A stretch of DNA of 43,375 nt, taken from positions 1 through 43,375 of the forward strand of contig CANIEC010000021.1 of the NCBI GenBank assembly GCA_947466085.1, read 5' to 3'. A program made the translations under genes and the position numbers. The notes under the pieces are model-generated. The model worked only from the letters and a program-made list of their open reading frames with translations, did no database searches and was not told where the DNA came from. The DNA comes from Rhodospirillales bacterium. GTDB taxonomy: Bacteria > Pseudomonadota > Alphaproteobacteria > Reyranellales > Reyranellaceae. Below are positions 11,900 to 26,520 of this stretch, piece after piece (the stretch's first letter is position 1; each line of letters opens with the position of its first letter).

Positions 11900-12835
11900 C
11901 TAAGCCGGCCTCAACAACCGCACGGCCTCGGTCGAGAGGCCGATCGATACTGGCAATGTCAGCGCATCGTCGCCGTCGATCTGGACGGGCTGGCGTCGCC
12001 GTTCGCCGGCATCGTTCAGAACCGAGATATTGACCTCGCGGCCGGCCACGACACGATAACCCGGTGTCCGCGGCAGCGCGCCCAGCACGAGGGCCGCGCC
12101 GAAGCGCAGCGCGTGCATCCAGCCCCAGCGCTCGAACAGGCAGACATGCAGCAGCGGCGCGTCGAGCGACGCTTCCGGCGCCACGACATAGGGGCCGGCA
12201 TAGTGTCGGGCGTGCGTCACGATCACCGACGCGGCCTCGTGGGCAACGCCGTCGATCTCCACGGCATAGCGCACCGGCCGGTAGCGCCTCGCCTCGACCA
12301 GCGAGCGCCAGACATAGGCGATCTTGCCCCAGCGCCGCTTCAGGCCTGAGCTCACGCCCGCCACCACCTTGGCGTCGAAGCCGGCGCCGGCCATCAGCGA
12401 GAAGCAGCGCGGACGCCCGGTTCCACTGGCCTGGCCCGGATGCATCAGCACTTCGCGTCCGGCGATGATCGCCTCGGCAAGCGCCGCGGCCGTCGAGCCC
12501 AGCCCCAGCTCGTGCGCCAGCACGTTGGCGGTCCCCAACGGTACGAGAGCGAGCGGCGGCGCCGTGGCGGCGCGGGCAGCGAGTCCGTTCACCACCTCGT
12601 TGATCGTGCCGTCGCCGCCGGCGACGGCAATCACGCCATAGCGTCCGGCATCGCACTGTTCGGCATAACGGCGGGCATCGCCCGGCGCCGCCGTCTCCAC
12701 GAGATCGACCGTCCAGCCCTGGGCGCGCACACGGCCCACGACCTCATCGACCAGGCCGCGGCGCCGGCGGCCGGCCGTCGGATTGAAAATGAGGAGCACC
12801 GATGTAGCGGGGCCGGTAGCCGAGGCGAATGTCAT
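11900..12835 (-). CDS. Diacylglycerol kinase-family lipid kinase
   Basis: A 311-residue protein of the DAGK catalytic family (DgkB/YegS-like), which phosphorylates diacylglycerol or related lipids with ATP. LLIFNPTAGRRRRG (residues ~14-27) is the N-terminal motif. GGDGTINEVVNG (73-84) is the glycine-rich nucleotide loop, and ALVPLGTANVLAHELGL is the substrate/ATP block. The ATG at 12835 gives the usual N-terminus; an upstream ATG at 12910 would add an unlike 25-residue extension. It is divergent from the plcP-like gene. The PHO-box-like repeat at 12829-12846 overlaps its start codon. In this setting it might recycle diacylglycerol to phosphatidate, but the lipid acceptor is not known. LCB5/sphingosine-kinase-like activity is another option. 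Confidence 0.88.
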   Translation of the reverse strand: MTFASATGPATSVLLIFNPTAGRRRRGLVDEVVGRVRAQGWTVDLVETAAPGDARRYAEQCDAGRYGVIAVAGGDGTINEVVNGLAARAATAPPLALVPLGTANVLAHELGLGSTAAALAEAIIAGREVLMHPGQASGTGRPRCFSLMAGAGFDAKVVAGVSSGLKRRWGKIAYVWRSLVEARRYRPVRYAVEIDGVAHEAASVIVTHARHYAGPYVVAPEASLDAPLLHVCLFERWGWMHALRFGAALVLGALPRTPGYRVVAGREVNISVLNDAGERRRQPVQIDGDDALTLPVSIGLSTEAVRLLRPA

Positions 12836-12846
12836 CGAACAGTCAC
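12829..12846 (+). promoter_or_regulatory. PHO-box-like direct repeat upstream of the plcP-like gene
   Basis: The 18-base sequence ATGTCAT-CGAA-CAGTCAC fits the PhoB consensus CTGTCAT-N4-CTGTCAC with one mismatch in each heptamer and the correct 4-base spacer. It is oriented towards the plcP-like gene, 113 bases upstream of its ATG, and covers the start codon of the divergent lipid-kinase gene. Confidence 0.5.
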
Positions 12847-12959
12847 AACCGATACACCTCCACGCAACGGCTCCCATACACAATCCAATGCGTACCCTGC
12901 AATCGTGCACAACATATTTTGTGTCGGTCGACCATTATCCACATGACCGTTCCTTCCAC

Positions 12960-13772
12960 ATGACACTCCACGACCGCAACCAGCCTGCCCGCCATAGAGC
13001 GATCTTCCTGTCCGACATCCATCTCGGCACACGCGGCTGCCAGGCCGAGCTGCTGCTCGACTTCCTGAGGAAGAACGAGAGCGAGCATCTCTATCTGGTG
13101 GGTGACATCGTCGACGGCTGGCGACTCAAGCGCTGGTGGTACTGGCCGCAAGCCCACAATGACGTCGTGCAGAAGATCATGCGCAAGGCCCGCAAGGGCA
13201 CAAACGTCGTCTACATTCCCGGCAACCACGACGAGGCGGCGCGGCAATACTGCCAGCTCACCTTCGGCGACGTGCGAGTCGAGGACGAGGTCATCCACGA
13301 AACACCGGACGGCAAGAAGCTGCTGGTGATCCACGGCGACCAGTTCGACGGCATCGTGCGCTATGCCCGCTGGCTCGCCATTCTCGGCGACTGGGCCTAT
13401 GCCGCGGCGCTGCGCCTGAACACCATCTTCAACTGGGGCCGCCGCAAGCTCGGCCTGCCCTACTGGTCGCTCTCGGCCTACCTGAAGCACCGGGTCAAGA
13501 ACGCCGTGCAGTTCATCAACGACTACGAGAATGCGGTGGCCAGCGAGGCCCGCCACCGCGGTGTCGATGGCGTCGTGTGCGGCCACATCCATCACGCCGA
13601 GATGCGCATGATCGACGGCGTGCTCTACTGCAACGACGGCGACTGGGTCGAGAGCTGCACGGCGCTCGTCGAGGATTTCGACGGCCGCCTGCGCATCGTC
13701 CACTGGGCGGACGAGGTGGCCCGTCGCTCGTCACGGCTTCCCTTGTCTCACGTTCAACTGGCCGCGGAGTAG
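12960..13772 (+). CDS. plcP: Metallophosphoesterase, PlcP-like phospholipase C (or LpxH-like)
   Basis: A 270-residue calcineurin-fold phosphoesterase. Metal-ligand motifs are complete: SDIHLG (D19, H21), GDIVDGW (D49), GNHD (N89-H90), H125 in VIHGDQFD and GHIHHAE (H209, H211). Proteins of this type are often labelled UDP-2,3-diacylglucosamine diphosphatase. However, the rhizobial family member PlcP is a phospholipase C that hydrolyses phosphatidylcholine and phosphatidylethanolamine to diacylglycerol under phosphate starvation. The PlcP reading is preferred because a GT4 gene follows after 3 bases (a known plcP-agt pairing), a diacylglycerol-kinase gene is divergent, and a PHO-box-like site lies upstream. 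The ribosome-binding site of the chosen ATG is poor; an ATG at 12888 is an alternative. Confidence 0.82.
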   Translation: MTLHDRNQPARHRAIFLSDIHLGTRGCQAELLLDFLRKNESEHLYLVGDIVDGWRLKRWWYWPQAHNDVVQKIMRKARKGTNVVYIPGNHDEAARQYCQLTFGDVRVEDEVIHETPDGKKLLVIHGDQFDGIVRYARWLAILGDWAYAAALRLNTIFNWGRRKLGLPYWSLSAYLKHRVKNAVQFINDYENAVASEARHRGVDGVVCGHIHHAEMRMIDGVLYCNDGDWVESCTALVEDFDGRLRIVHWADEVARRSSRLPLSHVQLAAE

Positions 13773-13775
13773 CCC

Positions 13776-14828
13776 TTGCGCATTGCCATCGTTACCGATG
13801 CCTGGCGGCCCCAGATCAACGGCGTCGTCCGTACGCTCGAGATCGTCTCGCGGCTCCTTCGCGCCGAGGGCCACGAGGTCGAGGTGTTCGGCCCCGACCG
13901 CTTTCGCACCCTGCCCTGCCCGACCTATCCCGAGATCAGGTTGTCGCTGTTTCCCGCGTCCCGCCTCAGCCACATGCTGAAGCTGTTCGCGCCCGATGCC
14001 ATCCATCTCGTCACCGAGGGACCGCTGGGCTGGGCGGCGCGGGGCTTCTGCCGCCGTAACGGCATTCCGTTCACCACCGCCTACCACACGCGCTTCCCCG
14101 AATATGTCCAGGCCCGCATCCAGGTGCCGCTCTCGTGGAGCTACGCCCTGGTGCGCCGCTTCCATGCTCCGTCGGCCGGCGTGCTGGTCGTGTCTCCTGC
14201 GATCCGCGACGAACTCAGTGAGCGCGGCTTCAGGAACCTCGTGCCGTGGTCGCGCGGCGTCGACATCACCGCGTTCAAGCCCCAGCCGCGCGAGCAGTTC
14301 AAGGAACCGCGACCGATCTGGCTCTATACCGGGCGCGTCGCCATCGAGAAGAACATCAAGGCCTTCCTCGACCTCGATCTCCCCGGCACCAAGTGGGTGG
14401 TGGGCGGCGGCCCGCAACTCAAGTCGCTGCAGCGCCGCTACACCAACGCCCACTTCTTCGGCTCGGTGGACACCGACGAACTTTCATATCGCTACGCACA
14501 GGCGGACTGCTTCGTCTTCCCGAGCGTCACCGACACGTTCGGCCTGGTCATGGTCGAGGCGCTGGCTTCGGGCGTGCCGGTCGCGGGCTACCCGGTGCCC
14601 GGACCGCTCGACGTGGTGACCGATCCCAAGGTCGGTGCCCTCGACTGGGACCTGCGCACGGCCTGCCTCGCTGCCGTCTCGCGCGACCCCGAGGATTGCC
14701 GCCGCCATGCAGAAACCTTCACCTGGGAACGCTGCGCACGGCAGTTCCTGAACGCGCTGCAGAAGATTCCCCACAGCCATTGGCAGCCCCTGCGCAATCG
14801 CGTCCTGCCCGACGCCGCCGCGCCCTAG
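13776..14828 (+). CDS. agt: GT4 glycosyltransferase, Agt-like (diacylglycerol glycosylation)
   Basis: A 350-residue GT-B glycosyltransferase of family GT4. The N-terminal MRIAIVTDAWRPQINGVVRT and EGPLGWAARGFCRRNGIPFT motifs resemble those of sulfoquinovosyl- and glycosyl-diacylglycerol synthases. The donor site has GRVAIEKN (R187, K192) and DTFGLVMVEALASGVPVAGY, a D-x7-E form (D253, E261) of the usual E-x7-E. The start is TTG with GGAG eight to ten bases upstream, 3 bases after the plcP-like stop, so the two are translationally linked. In Agrobacterium and marine alphaproteobacteria an Agt partner of PlcP makes glucosyl- or glucuronosyl-diacylglycerol, and the same role is inferred here. The sugar donor cannot be read from sequence. 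Confidence 0.85.
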   Translation: MRIAIVTDAWRPQINGVVRTLEIVSRLLRAEGHEVEVFGPDRFRTLPCPTYPEIRLSLFPASRLSHMLKLFAPDAIHLVTEGPLGWAARGFCRRNGIPFTTAYHTRFPEYVQARIQVPLSWSYALVRRFHAPSAGVLVVSPAIRDELSERGFRNLVPWSRGVDITAFKPQPREQFKEPRPIWLYTGRVAIEKNIKAFLDLDLPGTKWVVGGGPQLKSLQRRYTNAHFFGSVDTDELSYRYAQADCFVFPSVTDTFGLVMVEALASGVPVAGYPVPGPLDVVTDPKVGALDWDLRTACLAAVSRDPEDCRRHAETFTWERCARQFLNALQKIPHSHWQPLRNRVLPDAAAP

Positions 14829-24571: not shown

Positions 24572-25225
24572 CTAGGTCGCGCGCCGACAGACGGCGTACT
24601 GGGCGTAGCCGAGATGCGGCCGCTCGAAGCGCCGGACCTCGATGTCGCCGGGGAGCCGCGTCAGGGCGGACTCCAGCGCGTCGCGCGGGATCACATGGAA
24701 CAGCGCCAGCCACTGGCGCAGGCCGCCACGAAACCAGCGCGGCAGCCGCTCCTGGCCGCCAAAGTCGACGAGATGCAGTTCGCCGCCGGGCTGCAGCCAC
24801 ACGACCGATTGGGCCAGCGCCTTCTCCCAGTCCGGGATCATCGACAGCGTGTAGGAGAAGAAGATGCGCGAGAAGCCCGGCACGCCGAAGAGCAGCGCGG
24901 GGTCGAAGCGCGTGGCGTCGGCATGGGCCAGACGAACGCGGCCGCCCAGCCCCTCGCGCTCGACGCGGCGGCGCGCCGTGTCGAGCATCTCCAGCGACAG
25001 GTCGATGCCGAACAGCGGCGTGGCGGGGTGTCGATGCGCCACCGCGATCAGGTTGCGCGCGGTGCCGCAGCCGATCTCCAGCACGCGACCACCCGGCGGC
25101 GGCGCAAGGCCCTCGATCAGCCGGTCGCGGCCCAGCAGGTAGTACTTGCGGCTGAGATCGTAGACGTGGCGCTGGCGGCGATAGATCCGGTCCATGAGAC
25201 CGGCATTGGCGAGGGTCGTGCTCAC
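24572..25225 (-). CDS. btaB: DGTS N-methyltransferase (betaine lipid synthesis)
   Basis: A 217-residue SAM-dependent methyltransferase that makes three N-methylations of diacylglyceryl-homoserine to give the betaine lipid DGTS. Motif I is VLEIGCGTARNLIAVA (residues ~48-63), motif II PLFGIDLSLEMLDTARRRVE, and motif III about SRIFFSYTLSMIPDWEKALA. The opening RIYRRQRHVYDLSRKYYLLGRDRLI is the characteristic BtaB N-terminus. The start is GTG, with GTGA overlapping the btaA stop, so translation is coupled to btaA. Together they form a two-gene operon with a PHO-box-like site ahead of it. Confidence 0.9.
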   Translation of the reverse strand: MSTTLANAGLMDRIYRRQRHVYDLSRKYYLLGRDRLIEGLAPPPGGRVLEIGCGTARNLIAVAHRHPATPLFGIDLSLEMLDTARRRVEREGLGGRVRLAHADATRFDPALLFGVPGFSRIFFSYTLSMIPDWEKALAQSVVWLQPGGELHLVDFGGQERLPRWFRGGLRQWLALFHVIPRDALESALTRLPGDIEVRRFERPHLGYAQYAVCRRAT

Positions 25226-26454
25226 GGCTTCAGCACATAGAGATGGAAGCCACCATAGATGGCCGACCGGTCGCGCGCCGTGAAGGCGCGCGATGCCTCG
25301 GCCTCGTAGTGCCACTGGTCGAGCAGCTCTGGCGCGACGCGGCCGGGCAGCAGCGAGGGTTCGGCGGCGGTGCGGAAGATCACGCGGGCGCCCGGCCGCG
25401 CCGTGCGCGTGATCTCGCTCCACAGCGCATTGAGCTGCGCATCCGTCATCCAGTCCTGCGCATCGAGCAGCACGTAGCGGTCGCGCGAGCCCGCGGGACA
25501 GGAGGCGAGATAATCCGTCACCGAGCGGTTCATCACCTCGACCTTCCCGGCCCGGCGCTTCACCGCGGCAAAATTCTCCTGCCTGAGATAGGGCGGCAAT
25601 GGCCCGCTGGCATTACGCGCATAGCTGCGACCGAAAGCCTGCCAGGCGAAGTAGTTGTCGTCGAGGCTGAAACCGCAGGCCAGCCGCTCGACCCGGTCGC
25701 GCAGCACCGAGCCCATGTCGCGGCCACCGGCCAGCGCCTCGTACTGCGCCGGCGGGATGCCGAGCCCGTAGAGCGACAGCCGGTTCGACGTGGCCCAGCG
25801 CACGGCCGGCTTGTCGAACAGGGGAGCCAGCACCGTGTCGAAGAAGCGCTGCTGCTCCTCGATCGTACGCGCGGCGAGAAGCTTGCCGAAGTCGACGCCG
25901 TAGACGCGGGCGGCGACGTGCGCCGCGCCGATGAAGCGGCCGAGCACGCCGTGGCGGTAGGCGTTCTGCGCAAAGATCGAGATGCGGCGCCGGCCGCCCC
26001 GGTGCAGGCTGCGGCCTTCCCAGTAGGCGCGGCTCTCGGTATCGAGATGAGGCGCGATCTCGCGGTCGTAGACGCGCGGATTGGCGCGCGAGTCGGCGGC
26101 GCCGAAGAAGCGATAGTAGTCCGACCAGGACGGAAGTTTCTGCGCCGCCGTGAGTTTCAACCGGTTGAGCGCCACATGGGCGCGGCTGAGATCGACGGCG
26201 GTGATGGCCGCGGGATCGGCGGTGAGATAGGACAGGATGTTGCAGCCGCCCGACGCGATGGCCACGACGTGACAGTCCGGCGTCAGCGCCATCGCCTCGA
26301 GGTCGACCTCGGGATCCTCCCAGATCTGGGCGTAGACGAGACCGCGGAACAGCCGCTCGAACAGCTTCTCCAGCATCCCTTCACGGGACAGAACCTTGTG
26401 GCGGCGTACCGCCTGCTTCAGGAGCGATTGGCTCTCTGCCTGCGGATGGATCAA
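25222..26454 (-). CDS. btaA: S-adenosylmethionine:diacylglycerol 3-amino-3-carboxypropyl transferase
   Basis: A 410-residue DUF3419-family enzyme that moves the 3-amino-3-carboxypropyl group of SAM to diacylglycerol, giving diacylglyceryl-homoserine. Family blocks are HKVLSREGMLEKLFERLFRG, LVYAQIWEDPEVDLEAMALT, VVAIASGGCNILSYLTADPA and ITAVDLSRAHVALNRLK in the N-terminal SAM domain. DRYVLLDAQDWMTDAQLNAL and ARVIFRTAAEPSLLPGRV lie near the C-terminus. No ATG or GTG is placed to give the full N-terminus. A TTG at 26454 with GGAG nine bases upstream yields MIHPQAESQS and a normal length, and is preferred. btaB overlaps its 3' end. The enzyme is membrane-associated on the cytoplasmic side. Confidence 0.92.
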   Translation of the reverse strand: MIHPQAESQSLLKQAVRRHKVLSREGMLEKLFERLFRGLVYAQIWEDPEVDLEAMALTPDCHVVAIASGGCNILSYLTADPAAITAVDLSRAHVALNRLKLTAAQKLPSWSDYYRFFGAADSRANPRVYDREIAPHLDTESRAYWEGRSLHRGGRRRISIFAQNAYRHGVLGRFIGAAHVAARVYGVDFGKLLAARTIEEQQRFFDTVLAPLFDKPAVRWATSNRLSLYGLGIPPAQYEALAGGRDMGSVLRDRVERLACGFSLDDNYFAWQAFGRSYARNASGPLPPYLRQENFAAVKRRAGKVEVMNRSVTDYLASCPAGSRDRYVLLDAQDWMTDAQLNALWSEITRTARPGARVIFRTAAEPSLLPGRVAPELLDQWHYEAEASRAFTARDRSAIYGGFHLYVLKP

Positions 26455-26502: not shown

Positions 26503-26520
26503 GTGCCAGTTTGATGACGG
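26503..26520 (-). promoter_or_regulatory. PHO-box-like direct repeat upstream of btaA
   Basis: Read on the minus strand: CCGTCAT-CAAA-CTGGCAC. It matches CTGTCAT-N4-CTGTCAC with one mismatch per heptamer and the canonical 4-base spacer. It ends 48 bases upstream of the btaA TTG start, and TAGCGT about 10 bases further on could be the -10. The divergent ogt gene begins 56 bases away on the other side. Confidence 0.55.

Follow-up and report, generated by a model that had tools for sequence, protein, structure and literature searches.

In a stretch of DNA from a Rhodospirillales bacterium of the family Reyranellaceae (contig CANIEC010000021.1, positions 1 to 43,375, referred to here in its full length as the window), the genes plcP and agt stand behind a strong and conserved PhoB-type box, and the start codon of a divergently transcribed lipid kinase gene lies inside that box. 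In the lipid remodelling that accompanies phosphate starvation, PlcP frees diacylglycerol for phosphorus-free lipids; to our knowledge, what stops this diacylglycerol from being phosphorylated again has been little studied. The core of the locus is a new member of the known plcP-agt system, in a new genus, and two of its properties are new here: a divergent kinase whose start codon falls within the box, and a box direction that changes between families. As a whole, the locus is very probably part of a lipid remodelling response switched by PhoB, in which plcP-agt and a btaA-like gene use diacylglycerol for which the kinase competes. With the kinase and plcP under a common promoter region, and a box whose direction differs by family, the question of diacylglycerol re-phosphorylation becomes directly testable. 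The genome containing the window comprises 5.17 Mb in 322 contigs, and Reyranella records are among its nearest named relatives; coordinates of all features are given in Table 1.

An earlier note on this DNA had described a PlcP-like phosphoesterase and a GT4 enzyme separated by three bases, the second with a TTG start, downstream of a heptamer repeat that contains the kinase start, and we confirmed these coordinates. The predicted PlcP is 57% identical to a protein of P. aeruginosa, encoded by a plasmid copy that precedes a glycosyltransferase gene, and 54% identical to a protein of S. meliloti, encoded near genes for LuxR and acyl-homoserine lactone (AHL) synthase. From gene order and names, we take these two records to be the characterised PA3219 and SMc00171. 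Over 330 residues, the agt product shares 51% identity with Agt1 of P. aeruginosa, in agreement with the GT4 assignment, and 76 of the 80 named plcP loci likewise contain an Agt match, that of L077 reaching no more than 29%. In a tree of 40 sequences, from which a motif filter left out six of 13 further PlcP loci, a branch with 100% support in the Shimodaira-Hasegawa-like approximate likelihood ratio test (SH-aLRT) split the window PlcP, together with the proteins of S. meliloti and P. aeruginosa, from 27 LpxH proteins scoring above their family cut-off. Three sequences scored below the cut-off: two of them joined PlcP, and the third joined LpxH on a very long branch. The phylogeny, which the earlier note had named as a test, thus places the phosphoesterase with PlcP.

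Presence and absence of genes were counted in 38 genomes of the genus (G000-G036 and G061). We rejected as very improbable the alternative of an LpxH phosphoesterase in a unit for lipid A synthesis, the reading to which public plasmid records lend support by labelling relatives UDP-2,3-diacylglucosamine diphosphatase: the LpxH model (NCBIfam TIGR01854), whose cut-off is 190.35 bits, gave the protein 42.5 bits (42 when the genome was searched), the protein stands apart from LpxH in the tree, LpxB was found in 0/38 genomes, and LpxC in one (G034, 75% complete). Judged by its sequence, the phosphoesterase is a PlcP and not an LpxH, which suggests that the public label is misleading for such proteins. 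LpxI was likewise found in none of the 38 genomes, and LptD in one (G013, with 6% contamination), and the genus seems to be without lipid A synthesis and lipopolysaccharide export. A literature search, with most subscription journals beyond its reach, returned no paper on a genus-wide loss of these functions.

Given the strong PhoB-type box and the identities of PlcP and Agt, we assign the pair to the known plcP-agt unit. Operons of this kind with a Pho box have already been described (PMC4796936, PMC8528852), and one is also found in Methylosinus trichosporium (PMC9239053). The window unit is like them (type 2 of PMC4796936; P. aeruginosa PA3219-PA3218, PMC8528852; M. trichosporium, PMC9239053) in gene order, in homology (57% and 51% to the P. 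aeruginosa pair) and in the Pho box upstream; it is unlike them in having a divergent YegS-type kinase that starts within the box, and a btaA-like gene with a box of its own 13 kb away. That last gene recalls the plcP-btaAB unit (type 1 of PMC4796936), since a btaA-like gene with a PhoB-type box is present in this genome region, but here it forms its own unit instead of following plcP. The earlier note had thought the switch with the divergent kinase undescribed; no paper on a divergent promoter of plcP and a kinase was found in the literature search.

To score PhoB boxes we built a matrix from 35 distinct 18-mers, taken solely from the pstS promoters of 20 genus genomes, where two to four half-sites follow each other at 11-bp steps as judged by eye. 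The box before plcP (ATGTCAT at 12829-12835, CGAA at 12836-12839, CAGTCAC at 12840-12846) is the best site of the window with 20.7 bits, the runner-up reaching 14.6, and 2.6 Mb of order-3 Markov sequence, read on both strands, contained no site as good. The pattern TGTCAYNNNNNNGTCAY has exact matches at seven places in the 5.17-Mb genome; its reversed control has none. The plcP box and the pstS promoter account for two of the seven, and a third lies between phnG and a pstS-like gene. Scores over the seven were 22.5 (pstS), 22.5 (phnG side), 20.7 (plcP), 17.6, 13.7, 13.6 and 9.3 bits, those of the six other places being the best register within about 30 bp. The scan that the earlier note had proposed thus ranks the plcP box close to the pstS and phnG-side sites. 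In this genome the pstS promoter precedes the pst genes and phoB, the latter lying downstream of pstS and apparent pstC, pstA and pstB genes (Pfam was run for pstS and phoB only). The phnG-side site points at the pstS-like gene; it falls within the longest frame of that gene, whose domain begins only at residue 80, so that its position before the gene is presumed. Three further TGTCAYNNNNNNGTCAY places (C83, C100 and C188) lie apparently within reading frames. The 17.6-bit site (C52; L174:1641-1658) is found about 450 bp before the frame of a HisKA_2 sensor kinase. Of two positive controls scored with the matrix, the region upstream of P. aeruginosa plcP gave 13.2 bits and that of S. meliloti only 8.8 at best. 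Among the 38 genus genomes, 37 encode a PhoB that scores above its family cut-off. On these letters and scores, 12829-12846 is a strong and conserved PhoB-type box that ranks with the pst boxes and to which PhoB would be expected to bind.

The conservation of the box, and its direction, were assessed by comparing scores with those of dinucleotide shuffles in 36 distinct upstream sequences of the genus. The score directed at plcP, from 11.2 to 24.7 bits, was significant at p<0.05 in 36/36 and at p<0.01 in 35/36, so that the expected conservation in related genomes holds; the score directed at the kinase reached p<0.05 in 4/36 and p<0.01 in none. In all 47 genus-like loci, 17 of them named, which come in part from the same genomes, the best site of the locus lay within 400 bp before plcP, and in 46 it was the plcP-directed box itself, a reverse site of 13.5 bits exceeding the box of 11.2 in L101. 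The probable third half-site reads GATTCAC in many relatives and matches, by eye, the extra half-sites of the pstS promoters.

The divergent gene belongs, as had been proposed, to the diacylglycerol kinase family: DAGK_cat (100.9 bits) and YegS_C (63.0 bits) were both above their Pfam cut-offs. Against NCBIfam the best score was 108.5 bits, under the cut-off in each of the 11 families listed, and, no equivalog naming a substrate, we therefore infer that the substrate is diacylglycerol. Read on the kinase strand, the CAT of the box gives an in-frame ATG in all 36 distinct genus sequences. In 22 of them a stop codon stands in frame upstream of the box before any other start, and in 12 a longer frame is open from an ATG 14 codons upstream; two more have neither stop nor start within these 14 codons. 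The window is not among the 22 and is among the 12, and its kinase may start at the upstream ATG (12877-12875) instead. The first half-site doubles as kinase codons 1-3. Codon 2 is threonine in 31/36 sequences, written ACA in 30 of the 31, and across six genes of the window 9 out of 106 threonine codons are ACA (binomial p about 1e-32, ignoring relatedness); this excess argues that the first half-site is kept at the level of DNA and not of protein.

The kinase is a conserved partner of the plcP locus. It was matched in 61 of the 80 named loci, in 59 of them divergent and within 450 bp of plcP; these 61 comprise 17 genus-like loci and 44 others, of which 42 have the divergent kinase within 450 bp and two (L050 and L062) further away. 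In a tree of 30 kinases neighbouring plcP and four other kinases of the genus, three paralogs stood apart and the one from G013 fell among the neighbours. G013, which carries a kinase of 40-42% identity together with the only LptD, may be contaminated (6% is listed). In the complete genus genome G016, in the stretch between rraA and a transglycosylase gene, agt, plcP and the kinase except for its last 32 residues are gone, and no plcP was found elsewhere in that genome.

Outside the genus, the direction of the box is often different. In the 42 loci with a divergent kinase within 450 bp of plcP, a site directed at the kinase was found at p<0.05 in 24 and at p<0.01 in 17, and one directed at plcP in 8 and 4, respectively; low-GC control strand-windows from these loci gave 10/252 and 2/252. 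These figures are limited by a matrix that comes from another family, by kinship among loci and by uncertain start codons. By genus, kinase-directed sites were present in 9/12 Azospirillum loci (plcP-directed, 0), 2/3 Magnetospirillum, 2/2 Telmatospirillum and 1/3 Nitrospirillum. Four Telmatospirillum-like loci (L039, L059, L061 and L073) have TATAGA 22-23 bp after the box, with in-frame kinase ATGs following it at 8-15 bp. The kinase is probably induced together with plcP in several other families. L021, from Reyranellaceae but outside the genus-like set, has a site that points to plcP and holds an in-frame kinase ATG. Among the 19 loci without a kinase match, the site pointed toward plcP in six and away from it in five.

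We propose the following course of events. When phosphate is scarce, phosphorylated PhoB would bind the 11-bp repeats at 12829-12857 and start transcription of plcP-agt; PlcP would split phospholipid into diacylglycerol and a phosphate-bearing head group, and Agt would glycosylate the diacylglycerol to a phosphorus-free glycolipid. A second PhoB box would start the btaA-like gene, another phosphorus-free use of diacylglycerol, and the YegS-type kinase would compete for this diacylglycerol to make phosphatidic acid. In the genus, PhoB and polymerase engaged at plcP would cover the start and leader of the kinase gene, whose transcription would probably be hindered during starvation.

Several observations weigh against parts of this proposal. 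The box lies 113 bp from the plcP ATG, and a scan of 12700-13000 found no sigma-70 consensus. A plcP match is missing in 4/37 genus genomes, and one more has contig-end fragments only. The loss in G016 is a single deletion of neighbouring genes, which need not imply a joint function. Outside the genus, the box was significant in both directions in 4/42 loci and in neither in 14/42. Repression of the kinase in Reyranella is a possibility suggested by the geometry of the overlap.

How the kinase is controlled can be read in three ways. The earlier note had suggested that PhoB binding could activate degradation while blocking re-phosphorylation. Blocking is possible, because the kinase start codon is in the box in 36/36 genus sequences; as a general rule the claim is not supported, the outgroup box being directed at the kinase in 24/42 loci against 8/42 for plcP. 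That PhoB, in this genus and by design, both activates plcP-agt and represses the kinase can be put forward only tentatively. The same overlap in L021 and the scarcity of kinase-directed sites in the genus speak for it, as do the 124 bp between the two divergent start codons, which mean that the kinase and plcP promoters must overlap; on the other side stand the outgroup directions, the co-induction of PlcP and DagK reported in P. putida (PMC5082522), and the fact that the overlap may stem from compaction. It is likewise conceivable, though we would not call it probable, that the box serves plcP only and that the kinase is a housekeeping neighbour on which the overlap has no effect; the divergent kinase within 450 bp in 59/80 named loci and the joint loss in G016 argue otherwise.

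The third reading is that PhoB co-activates both directions, Reyranella included, with the kinase salvaging or buffering the diacylglycerol freed by PlcP. The kinase-directed outgroup boxes and the order of box, TATAGA and kinase ATG in the Telmatospirillum-like loci favour it, and there is a precedent in P. putida BIRD-1, where PlcP and DagK are among the proteins of phosphate depletion and are called PHO-dependent in the discussion (PMC5082522). The likeness is that of a diacylglycerol kinase tied to PlcP in the Pho response; the mutant passage of that paper names PlcP and not DagK, and its passages on P. putida describe no divergent promoter of plcP and a kinase. For Reyranella we consider co-activation unlikely, given that the kinase-directed score is non-significant in 32/36 sequences and that the kinase start lies under the plcP-directed box.

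Returning to the proposal of a PhoB-switched remodelling, a wider version of it, which we offer as speculation and rather doubt in its entirety, would see a divergon of diacylglycerol fate across Rhodospirillales and their kin. plcP and an orthologous kinase would share one control region; PhoB would activate the kinase in several families, and in Reyranellaceae the box would have turned to plcP and taken in the kinase start, so that the kinase would be off and diacylglycerol would pass to glycolipids and betaine lipids, in bacteria seemingly without the lipopolysaccharide pathway.

Table 1. Predicted genes and DNA elements of the plcP and btaA-like regions (window coordinates; a point marks an element given without a strand)
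Feature	Position	Strand	Remarks
YegS/DgkB-type lipid kinase	11900..12835	-	ATG 12835-12833 within first heptamer; PF00781 and PF19279
Predicted PhoB box, half-sites 1 and 2	12829..12846	+	Toward plcP; pstS-only matrix 20.7 bits, window rank 1
Probable third half-site GATACAC	12851..12857	+	11 bp in register, by eye
Invariant block TACACAATC	12877..12885	.	Identical in 36/36 distinct genus sequences
TTATCCACA, DnaA-box-like	12935..12943	+	Just before plcP; exact in 28/36, at most 1 mismatch in 35/36 genus sequences
plcP, calcineurin-like phospholipase C (activity predicted)	12960..13772	+	ATG 12960; domain match, identity, tree
agt, GT4 glycosyltransferase (activity predicted)	13776..14828	+	TTG start; 3-base gap after plcP
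Methyltransferase, candidate btaB	24572..25195	-	PF13649 and kin; BtaB by position only
btaA-like gene, DUF3419	25222..26376	-	PF11899 372.6 bits; further TTG starts in frame at 26454 and 26484
Second PhoB-type box CCGTCATCAAACTGGCAC	26503..26520	-	14.6 bits, window rank 2; before btaA-like gene

The second box lies 13 kb from the plcP box. The protein encoded downstream of it had no match in NCBIfam, and we take its family, DUF3419, to be that of BtaA; a methyltransferase gene adjoins the btaA-like gene. Eighteen genus regions were compared, of which 16 include the start of the btaA-like gene, one its end only and one no such gene. All 16 with a gene start have a site of 13.7-17.3 bits located 143-145 bp before the ATG (26376 in the window), which is in each case the top site of its region.

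Two further elements stand between the kinase and plcP. The invariant block TACACAATC is a possible -10 element of plcP, part of the kinase promoter, or both. It belongs to a strongly conserved segment, 12877-12928, that also contains TGCAATCG...ATTTTGTGTCGG and has, by eye, the character of an inverted repeat. The element TTATCCACA, presumably the DnaA-box consensus, occurs eight times in the 5.17-Mb genome, and the reversed pattern 18 times.

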